Origin: Dioscorea cayenensis subsp. rotundata
Taxonomy: Eukaryota > Streptophyta > Magnoliopsida > Dioscoreales > Dioscoreaceae
Direction: 5' to 3'
Length of the DNA stretch: 64,000 nt
Assembly (NCBI RefSeq): GCF_009730915.1
Contig: NC_052474.1
Location: forward strand, 20,991,501 to 21,055,500
A program made the translations under genes and the position numbers. The notes under the pieces were generated by a model. The model did not search any database. It saw only the letters and a program-made list of their open reading frames with translations, and was not told where the DNA came from. Of this stretch, positions 54,670-58,262 are shown piece after piece. The number at the start of each line of letters is the position of its first letter. Position 1 is the first letter of the stretch.

Positions 54670-56133
54670 CATTTAAGTGGTTGTACTGTTTTGCTGCAAG
54701 TTTCCATGTAATTGGGTAGGTGAGCAACTTTTTGAACTAGTTGATATGATGATACTCTTTGTCGTATAGTCAGCAAGTGTGCTAAAGCCCTATGTATTTA
54801 GAATGCCTTTGCTAGAGAAATAAAAAGTGCTCTGCTCTTTATCCTTTATCTCTAACATTTGGTATCCAAGCATTGGTGAGATCCTGCGGAGCTGATGTTG
54901 AAGACTCCAATGGCGACTCTGACGAGCAGTAAGATGCCGGGGAGCGGATGGTTAGACTTAGGTGGCTCGCTCACATCCTCAAGAGGAGGAGGCAACCTTC
55001 CAGCATCCTTCCCTCTCTTGGTGAAAGGAGAGAATTACGTGACGTGGGCTGTCAAAATGCGCTCGTTCTTGGATGCGCAAGGAGTGTGGGAAGCAGTGGA
55101 GCCATAAGTCGGGATGGTGGTAGATCTGAAGAAAGACAAATTTGTGATCTCTGCTATCCATCAAGCAAAAAATCCGGATCCGATGATCCGATCCAGTATC
55201 CGATTTTTTTACTATATCCGAATCCGATCCGGTTTTTACTGTTTCGCATATTCTTATATATAAATATAAAATAATATTAACTTTTATATGGTCTAAAAAG
55301 TAAAAAAATCCAAATCTCTCATCTAAACTATTTAAGAGTTATATATTTATATATATTAATAAATTTAAATTTTACGAGGGCTAAAAGTAAAAAAAAAATA
55401 TACAAATGTCTAATCTAATAACTTAAAGAGTTATATAGTTATATAATTATATATATATATATATATTAATAAATTTCAATTCTACAGAGGTAAAAAAGAA
55501 AAATATTCCAAATCTCAGACTCCCAGTCCCCAACAACCATCACCCCCTCTCCACTCTTTTCTCGAGCCTCCATCCAAATCTTTTCTCTCTCTAACAACAA
55601 TAATCATTATTAATACTTCAAAAGTTATTTGAAAATTTTTTTTCTAATGATTAAGATTGATAAAACTTTTTATTATTTTTTGTTATGATATTTGTTGTGT
55701 GAAAAATAATATAAAAAATGTAATGCTTTTTATAAATTATAAGTTTTTCATATTTGTTTTTTTATGTAATTTTGTTATATAAAACAAATCCATGGAGTAG
55801 ATAAAACTTAAATTTGGATCTGAATATCCGATATCCGATCCGGTTTAACCGGGTACCCCATTTTTAGTATCCGGTTTAAATCGGATCAAATACGGGTCAA
55901 GTTTTTGTTGATCCAAAAAACCGGGTACTCGATCCGGTTTTAAAAACCGGATCGGGTACCCGGTTTTACTCACCCCTAGTGATGACTTCCTGATGCTTGT
56001 TTCTAAAAAAAATTCGGCAAAAGAAACGTGGGAAGCCTTGAAATCACTGCACATAGAAGCTGTGAAATATCAAAGTGCGAGAATACAACAACTTCATGTG
56101 GGAATTTGAAATCCTAAAGATGTTCAACCTCAG
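54670..56133 (+). mobile_element. 5' part of a Copia retrotransposon (LTR end, PBS, gag)
   Basis: The LTR probably ends CTCTAACA at 54850-54857; two bases later TGGTATCCAAGC (54860-54871) is the primer-binding site complementary to initiator tRNA-Met, as usual in plant Copia. The gag ORF begins at 54895 (MLKTPMATLTS...) with the family block KGENYVTWAVKMRSFLDAQG and a premature stop at 55105-55107. After an inserted element (55156-55978) gag continues (SDDFLMLVSKKN, KETWEALKSLH) and then breaks at 56133. Protease, integrase, RT and RNase H are absent; in their place lies the alkenal reductase exon copy. The left LTR limit is approximate. Confidence 0.75.
55156..55978. mobile_element. hAT-like element inserted in the Copia gag
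   Basis: About 820 bp splitting the gag frame. The right end reads GGTTTTACTCACCCCTAGT, whose reverse complement ACTAGGGGTGAGTAAAACC is a hAT-type terminus; the left end keeps only the subterminal AGCAAAAAATCCGGATCCG. Both sides carry repeated ATCCGATCCG/CGGATCGGG phrases. There is no coding capacity; the minus-strand ORF 56054-55845 is made of these repeats. The left terminus seems eroded, so no 8-bp duplication can be scored. Confidence 0.65.
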
Positions 56134-56512
56134 GTATTTTCCCAAAGGTATCGACATATACTTCGACAATGTTGGTGGTAAAATGCTCGATGCAGCACTC
56201 CTTAACATGAGGTTGCATGGGCGTGTCGCACTGTGCGGAATGGTATCATTGCATTCCTACACCGATACGGATGGAATACATAACTTGTTTACATTGGTAC
56301 AAAAGCGAATCCGTATGGAAGGATTTCTTCAGAGTGATTACTTGCACTTGTTTCTGAATTTTGTGGAATGTGTTGGGAATTACCATCGACAAGGCAAGAT
56401 TGTCTACTTAGAGGACATAAAGGAAGGTCTAGAGAACGCGCCCGCAGCCTTTGCCGGATTGTTCACTGGAAAAAATGTCGGAAAACAAGTTGTATGCGTT
56501 GCAAAAGATTGA
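56134..56512 (+). pseudogene. Duplicated last exon of the 2-alkenal reductase
   Basis: An exact-length copy (379 bp) of exon 5 of the gene at 27963-30643, with the same stop, and at least 170 bp of the 3' flank (to about 56700). It starts exactly at the splice acceptor (CAG/G) of the source. Only a few differences are seen (for example GRVAVCGM to [19 protein letters not shown] to FLNFVECVGNY), so the copy is recent. Upstream exons are missing and replaced by Copia gag. The frame stays open from an ATG at 56075, giving a 145-residue chimera: a short gag-derived head (WEFEILKM) fused to the C-terminal third of the reductase. It lacks the NADPH-binding loop and cannot be an active enzyme. Confidence 0.9.
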
Positions 56513-56739
56513 TTGAGTTGTAGTTCTTGCAATCTTCTCATGTATTGATCATTGTTGAAAGTTTGTTTCAAGGATTGGCATTATGCTGGAATTGTAATTG
56601 TCTCACTATTAAGCCAAAAATAAAGAGCTCTTATAGCTATTTCTTTGGTATTATTAATTATTAATGGTTTTGTTGCTAATATATCTATATATATATATAT
56701 ATATTTGGTGTATGCCTCCATATATAATACAGATATCTT

Positions 56740-57224
56740 GGTAGATTGTATATATGTCATATGTATTTTTTTATTGAATATGTATTTTTTTATCATCATG
56801 ATCTTGTGGCTTTTCTTTTTAAAATATTACTTTTTTTAATTAATTACTAAAATAGGCATTTTTATAATTATTTACTAAACTAGGGTATTTTCATTTTATT
56901 AATATTAAATTTTAAGTTTTTTTAATAGCTATGAGTTCCACTGATTTTTTTAATATTAAAATTTATATTTTTTTAAAAAAACAACATGATCCATTAGTTT
57001 TTTAATATTAAAATTTATTTTTTTAAAACTGAGATGAGTCATACTAGTTTTTTTTAAATTAAAAATAATTTTACACTAAAAACTTTATAACTTCATAAAA
57101 ATTTTTATAACTAGTTTTATTTTCACTTCTACTTTCACTAAAATAATCTCACCAAAAATAATTATAGAAATACCTATTATAGAAATAATTATAGAAATAC
57201 CTATTTTAGTAATTAATTTAAAAA

Positions 57225-57270
<46 letters not shown>

Positions 57271-58195
57271 AAGCCTATCTTGAAACCTCAAAATTTTGGT
57301 TAAATAAATAAAATAAAAGTACAAAGAAAAAAACAAAAAAAGTCTATATATAAGGATGGAGTGAACCAGTCATTCTCATTTAATTCCCAACAAAATCCCT
57401 GCCATTGATGGGTTGCTGCTTCTCCTCCCTCCACCAACCGGAGAACCCCAACTCCGGCAACGACGACCACCCGCATCATTCGCCGACGACGCAGCTGGTC
57501 CCGGCCACAGAGACAATGAACAGGCTCATCAACAACCATGATTTGCTGTTGGAGATACTTTCCCTACTTCCAACAAGATCTCTGATTAGATTCAAAAGTG
57601 TTTGCAAACTATGGCAGTCCATCATCTCATCAGATCCATATTTTATTAAAATCCACACCAAGCGCTGCAATCCTTATGCCACGCCAGATTGTTCAATTAA
57701 TCATGATCATCAAGAGATTCGTCAACGCTGTTGTTGTTGTTACTTTTTTGGAGGTGCAGTACGATATCCCTCGGCCTCATCCGCAGCCCCGGATCTGTCC
57801 CTTTCTACCCTCAAAGATGATGCTGCAATCTTCTTGAGACTTGATCGTACCATGATAAGTATTTCTTGTTATGGTTCTTTCTATGGTTTACTCATTTGCC
57901 TGCTATATATTGATAAAAGCCCACCCATACGTTGTAAGTATTTCCCTGAGCTCATTTACATATTCAATCCAGCGACGATACAATACAAAAGAATTCCTTA
58001 TGGCAGTCCACAGAGGTCTCTTTTAGATATCATTCTCACTCCGGATCATAAACTCATAATGTTTTCATCAACTCATAACATCAATAGTTATGATGTGGAT
58101 ATTAGGATGTATGTCTCCGACACTCGATCATGGAAGGTGGTATATTCATTTCAAGATTATAAAAACTATCAACTTATCACACCGATGTTTGGCCA
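56740..58195. repeat. Copied arm of the inverted duplication (F-box flank and 5' half)
   Basis: Matches the reverse complement of 46368-47650. Changes in this copy: an AT-rich unit containing TTAATATTAAAATTTAT has multiplied at 56930-57050, and a short TAATATTAAA site has become a TA microsatellite (57228-57262). The left limit lies in or just after a TA microsatellite (56685-56704) that also ends the alkenal reductase copy. Confidence 0.88.
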
Positions 58196-58262
58196 TGCCA
58201 ACACATACTTAATAAAAATATTATATTTACACAATTACACCTATAGTCCTAAAAAAAATTAA
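57408..58262 (+). pseudogene. Truncated inverted copy of the F-box gene
   Basis: Starts with the same MGCCFSSLHQ and keeps the F-box, but the match ends after ITPMFG (58195); the frame runs 22 more codons through unrelated DNA to a stop at 58262, 284 aa in total. Differences from the full gene: Gly to Asp in TPGCSINHD, Tyr to Cys and Leu to Phe in CCYCYLFGG, Arg to Ile in NPATRQYK, and an extra Ser codon in MFSTHN. It has the upstream flank, hence possibly the promoter, and could be expressed as a protein with an F-box but only part of the substrate-binding region. Called pseudogene because of the truncation; a dominant-negative role is conceivable but untested. Confidence 0.85.

Follow-up and report, generated by a model that had tools for sequence, protein, structure and literature searches.

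How did the 5′ end of a Copia retrotransposon, the last exon of an alkenal reductase gene and an inverted, truncated copy of an F-box gene come to lie next to one another in the genome of Dioscorea cayenensis subsp. rotundata? They are found in the window, by which we mean the whole 64-kb stretch analyzed here (NC_052474.1, positions 20,991,501 to 21,055,500), which has zero N and belongs to a contig of 22.3 Mb in a genome of ~584 Mb. The original prediction, made from the letters alone, had proposed either replication-based rearrangement, with switching at TA repeats, or retroelement-linked transduplication. We consider it moderately probable that the locus is a complex filler-DNA patch, in which DNA copied from two nearby genes served to mend a break in an old Copia relic. 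From left to right, the mosaic is made of a Copia 5′ long terminal repeat (LTR), the Copia leader with N-terminal gag, an insert, more gag, exon 5 of the reductase with its 3′ flank, ~43 nt of spacer, and the inverted F-box copy. These parts, and the genes from which they derive, are as follows.

54651-54858, plus strand: putative Copia 5′ LTR, TGTTG...TAACA, labeled from its place ahead of the primer-binding site; four genomic relatives align from 54653/54654, and the borders are read from sequence.
54859-55168, plus strand: Copia primer-binding site and N-terminal gag (Pfam DUF4219), with an in-frame stop at 55105-55107, so that the open reading frame (ORF) stops at 55107.
55169-55977, no strand: foreign insert of 809 bp inside gag, missing from all four Copia relatives.
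55978-56128, plus strand: remaining gag fragment up to the break, precisely matched by the four relatives.
56066-56512, plus strand: open frame joining gag residues to the reductase C terminus, 148 codons stop to stop, with a match to the last ~130 residues of reductases of solved structure.
56129-56133, no strand: join 1, Copia to reductase, with an overlap of ~0-2 nt or a single extra nt.
56130-56696, plus strand: copy of the end of intron 4 (TCAG), exon 5 and the 3′ flank of the reductase, 98.06% identical over 567 columns to 30261-30826.
56706-56748, no strand: join 2, ~43 nt separating the flank of the exon from the F-box copy, mostly without identified source.
56749-58195, plus strand: inverted F-box copy, with 659 nt upstream of the ATG and the first ~262 of 484 codons; source 47647-46358.
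56808-57275, plus strand: Mutator-like miniature inverted-repeat transposable element (MITE), GGC...GCC, inside the copied F-box promoter; the same element is present in the source at ~47267-47585.
57408-58262, plus strand: truncated F-box ORF that keeps the F-box domain and ends in ~22 unrelated residues.
58196-58230, no strand: join 3, F-box copy to right flank; the copy ends GGCCA and the flank begins TGCCAACACAT.
27963-30643, plus strand: source gene 1, a five-exon alkenal reductase with AG/GT exon borders; copied piece 30261-30826.
45688-47142, minus strand: source gene 2, a 484-codon F-box gene recognized by its ORF and F-box domain; copied piece 46358-47647.

The mosaic is confirmed as real: matches this long lie far beyond chance. 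In the genome searches we scored 29 of 29 candidates for the exon stretch, 5 of 5 for positions 55975-56140, 40 of 330 for the F-box stretch and 40 of 978 for the right flank. Among these, the local reductase and F-box genes are the sole close sources, and no second copy of the mosaic appeared in the exon and F-box searches. Both source genes are still intact, as expected of templates that were copied and not moved. They are separate local genes, as predicted, but hardly unlinked, since both lie in the same window, ~25.9 kb (reductase) and ~10 kb (F-box) away. The search with the exon stretch recovered the stretch itself, the local gene (98%) and two further sites at 75-76% over ~380 bp (C104, C778); additional matches to the exon start are short (C10 twice, C5; 75-80%), as are the remaining ones of the 32 matches, which fall in the F-box or TA-rich part. 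A paralog as the true source of the exon, a candidate raised by a cluster of differences discussed below, was dropped: the next best genomic match to the exon copy after the local gene reaches 76%, and the local gene stays the source. The inverted F-box copy was recovered as two self-matches in inverse orientation at 93-94% identity (57035-58195 to 47486-46358, and 56749-56913 to 47647-47486). Its genome search gave 131 matches; past 57272, only the copy itself and the local F-box gene were found among the scored candidates, the remaining hits being to the promoter MITE or to AT-rich DNA.

The Copia part of the mosaic appears to be older than what follows it. All five candidates found with 55975-56140 match; one is the window itself, and the other four are copies elsewhere in the same genome, which we use as relatives. 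Each also aligns to ~54653-55168, and all four alignments stop at 56128, beyond which the relatives carry on and the window turns into reductase DNA. Counting columns in which the other four copies agree, the window copy has 43 private changes in 461 columns of the first piece and 15 in 135 of the second (58/596 overall). The corresponding values for the other copies are 7/425, 7/425, 3/421 and 11/429 in the first piece, and 1/121, 1/121, 4/124 and 2/122 in the second. The exon copy, by comparison, shows 10 substitutions in 558 positions relative to its source (p 2.6e-9 against Copia). The in-frame stop in the gag of the window is a TAA where all four relatives have GAA, and the window copy also carries one extra base that is absent from all of them. 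Because of this excess of private changes, the stop and the extra base, the Copia element had probably decayed to a relic before the exon was added to it.

In Pfam, the gag N terminus scores above the cut-off for DUF4219 (E 6.3e-11) and below that for Retrotran_gag_3 (E 0.0021). Copia does abut the exon directly, as had been claimed for its primer-binding site and gag, but the gag itself is interrupted by the insert at 55169-55977. This insert is rich in CCGGATC near its ends (right end CTCACCCCTA), shows a small target loss rather than a clean duplication, and may be hAT-like. No second LTR was found within the window, and the right-flank candidates that were scored contain no Copia remainder to the right of the block; the target sequence at the proposed break is lost. 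As expected for a plant sequence, no relatives of the fused exon protein were confirmed in IMG/VR, nor any of the gag N terminus in IMG/VR and GTDB contigs.

At join 1, three of the four Copia relatives continue AACTCTGAGAGC and the fourth AACTCTGAGAGA, whereas the window reads AACCTCAGGTATTTT and the intron-exon border of the reductase AGTTCAGGTATTTT. The exon copy therefore starts near the splice acceptor, but not exactly at it as originally described, since up to four intron bases (TCAG), including the acceptor AG, precede the exon. A spliced mRNA has CAAAG before this exon and shares AG only, whereas genomic DNA shares TCAG, which is a weak sign, by 2 nt, in favor of a DNA template. At its other end, the exon copy extends at least 76 nt beyond the sole AATAAA (30750) in the source stretch searched, and no run of six or more A is present there. 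This overrun and the missing A-run are not proof against an RNA template, as plant poly(A) sites vary, and since the copy holds one exon only, intron removal is uninformative on an RNA origin.

By eye, compared with L003 and L004 (nearly identical to each other, ~76% similar, and counted as one witness), all three amino acid differences (V>L, P>L and A>G) are changes of the exon copy. At four of the five silent differences L003/L004 match the copy, so these changes would be on the source side; at three of the four, however, the more distant L006 sides with the source. The pattern is weakly in line with a source under constraint and a copy free to change. Within the 351-residue 4hfj chain, the fused frame covers residues 212-342. 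In all likelihood the product is non-functional, because the reductase part is without the greater portion of the enzyme and the F-box protein is cut short.

The F-box copy gives clearer information on its template. It includes 659 nt upstream of the ATG, compared with 505 in the source, and reaches 59 nt beyond the end of the MITE; because this DNA outside the MITE and upstream of the ATG was copied, the template was DNA. The source MITE is without ~120 bp that the copy and family members keep, and this loss was therefore probably later than the copying. The outer ~340 nt of the element recurs in the genome as plus...minus pairs, and at 8 of 10 loci both arms fall within the stretch examined. 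These eight loci hold six distinct MITEs. Four of them end in GGC...GCC and are flanked by exact 9-bp duplications; one has a near-match and one none seen. The duplications and the ends therefore identify a Mutator-like MITE family, common in the genome, of which the window member retains only a decayed match in its flanks (TGATCTTGT/TATCTTGAA).

The inverted F-box copy does not follow the exon immediately, as had been described, but after the ~43 nt of join 2. Similarity to the reductase flank does not end in the TA microsatellite either: it runs through the repeat and on for nine more bases, eight of which match, so that the first few spacer bases belong to the flank. For the template of the remaining ~34 bases, the best matches in the window are at most 15 nt, and nothing strong emerged from the genome search. 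Templates for the spacer and for join 1 were sought in the window, and only short, mostly AT-rich matches were found among those listed. The exon flank and the upstream end of the F-box copy are both TA-rich, and the stretch between them resembles neither. Switching at TA repeats could thus apply to one join at most, as the Copia-exon join and the join of the F-box copy to the right flank are without a TA repeat.

We suggest the following course of events. A decayed old Copia would have lain between two genes and suffered a double-strand break, or a collapsed fork, inside gag. One end would then have been extended by copying the nearby reductase (the last bases of intron 4, exon 5 and the 3′ flank). 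After a further switch, the F-box gene would have been copied in opposite orientation, and the extended end would finally have been joined to the far side, with the rest of the Copia lost. The break itself is a proposal, as is a single episode for both pieces, and the copying would have proceeded by synthesis-dependent strand annealing (SDSA) or by microhomology-primed template switching, two processes that cannot be told apart here.

Events of this type are already known in plants, and the present case is a large and clear example. A close precedent is the chimeric maize p2/p1 gene, in which two neighboring sites served as templates for a 50-bp filler (PMC2686159). There, break repair linked separated sequences and inserted DNA from two sites close by, as is proposed here; unlike the 50 bp in total of that filler, the pieces here measure ~0.57 kb and 1.45 kb, come from two different genes, one of them inverted, and lie in an old Copia relic. 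Gene-bearing filler laid down by SDSA has been put forward as a mechanism of gene duplication (PMC3445842). As cited in PMC4423477 and PMC3445842, "Patching gaps in plant genomes" (Wicker et al. 2010) similarly describes breaks that SDSA fills with copies of foreign or gene-bearing DNA; by these citations, the trigger there is the insertion or excision of a transposon. A difference here is that the sources are local.

Several observations weigh against our proposal. The filler lengths cited in these sources, 1-131 bp (PMC2686159) and, for rice transposon excisions, 1-123 bp (PMC4423477), are much shorter than the pieces here. The exon copy begins 0-4 nt ahead of a splice acceptor, for which the chance is 0.7% when one of four acceptors is considered, and 2.5% for a start within 4 nt of any of the eight borders, both computed post hoc. 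Four of the eight exon differences found in 505 ungapped bp cluster within ~10-11 bp (30358-30367 versus 56227-56236, p 0.0015); a conversion tract or error-prone synthesis are our guesses for this cluster. The private changes of the Copia might partly mark an unsampled subfamily. Finally, divergence is uneven along the F-box copy: its coding (from the ATG) and proximal DNA, with 6/997, is below the exon (p 0.035), and its distal promoter, with 13/233, is above the coding and proximal DNA (p 2.8e-6).

This unevenness may mean that the pieces have separate dates, and it bears on the alternative that survives best, namely that the exon and the inverted F-box piece arrived in at least two events, at different times, by DNA copying or duplication in a rearrangement-prone region. 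The difference between the exon (10/558) and the F-box coding and proximal DNA is in line with this, and so is that at silent sites (7/255 versus 2/384, p 0.034); the surroundings also hold an older direct duplication, 18127-23596 to 32530-45292, in several collinear blocks of 76-92% identity. Over all blocks, however, the two copies do not differ (exon 10/558, F-box 20/1234, p 0.84), both pieces are local, and both lie in one gap. The uneven divergence may also come from faster change in the MITE, from misalignment of AT-rich DNA or from gene conversion. On balance, we regard separate events as unlikely. The description of both copies as recent is adequate on average, though not along the whole of the F-box copy; we do not claim a shared date for them.

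Transduplication linked to the Copia, or template switching by its reverse transcriptase, would produce a Copia-exon chimera, and a Copia that directly abuts the start of the exon, its gag frame reading on into exon 5, is what such a process would give. It resembles in this respect the RNA-based gene duplication involving LTR retrotransposons treated in PMC4838847, in which gene sequence is fused to LTR-element sequence; our locus differs in that the Copia appears old, neither a second LTR nor an A-run is seen, and the second piece includes promoter DNA. The carrier would be older than the piece it captured (58/596 versus 10/558), the exon copy overruns AATAAA, and the copy of the F-box promoter is left unexplained. 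Splicing from Copia into exon 5 was also ruled out, as all four relatives lack a GT donor at the join. We therefore do not retain the retroelement-linked part of the original prediction, and hold this origin to be very unlikely. Repair templated by RNA, with the exon piece copied from RNA at the break before a switch to genomic F-box DNA, would turn the start at the splice acceptor and the end in the 3′ flank into exon and transcript ends, and would leave an open frame fusing gag residues to the reductase C terminus; we judge it very improbable.

Capture of both pieces by a DNA transposon can be compared with two known patterns. Pack-MULEs hold gene pieces between two long terminal inverted repeats, with a 9-bp target duplication; Helitrons have a 5′ TC end and a 3′ CTRR end with a hairpin. 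In the mosaic two gene pieces do adjoin, as in the mosaics of gene pieces formed by Pack-MULE and Helitron capture (named in PMC3445842), and a Mutator-like MITE lies within the F-box part. In contrast to such capture, the inverted-repeat test revealed no transposon ends around the block: no long inverted repeats occur between 54500-57000 and 58000-59300, with only short AT-rich matches among those listed, and Helitron ends were not searched for. Moreover, the MITE is an entire element located upstream of the F-box ORF, the source has it as well, the copy passes its end, and the mosaic has no second genomic copy among the scored candidates. The promoter repeat, whose ~340-bp ends occur in inverted pairs elsewhere, was considered as a Pack-MULE sign and dropped, since the element is complete and has no gene piece inside. 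Transposon capture thus appears very improbable. That the assembler made the joins is highly implausible: join 2 does fall at a TA repeat, but the copies carry substitutions and indels relative to their sources, and so are not misplaced source reads, and the window, without N, is part of a 22.3-Mb contig. Unequal crossing over or tandem duplication was rejected, as there are two pieces, one inverted, with breakpoints within genes, and not one continuous segment in the same orientation and order. As predicted, pieces of two separate local genes were stitched together, and a copying process, based on replication or synthesis, accounts for them better.

Besides the F-box and alkenal reductase genes, those identified in the window are a SPO22/ZIP4-like gene and pieces of LRR receptor kinases; together with the Copia copies, this gene content is that of a plant. 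Beside the Copia LTR, on the minus strand, positions 54228-54614 may be a thioesterase-like exon (weak PDB match, E 0.062; no Pfam match). The right flank contains, at 58734-58997, a high-copy MITE-like repeat that resembles 41028-41287 in the window.

Adjacency alone is insufficient to call such mosaics retrotransposon capture, and the present locus is a caution to this effect. Under the filler-DNA patch that we favor, one can still read from it how a break in a plant genome was apparently filled with pieces of two neighboring genes, one of them inverted; the sources remain intact close by, and the target is older. Gene fragments, fusions of exons to elements, and promoter-bearing partial genes can then arise without a carrier transposon.

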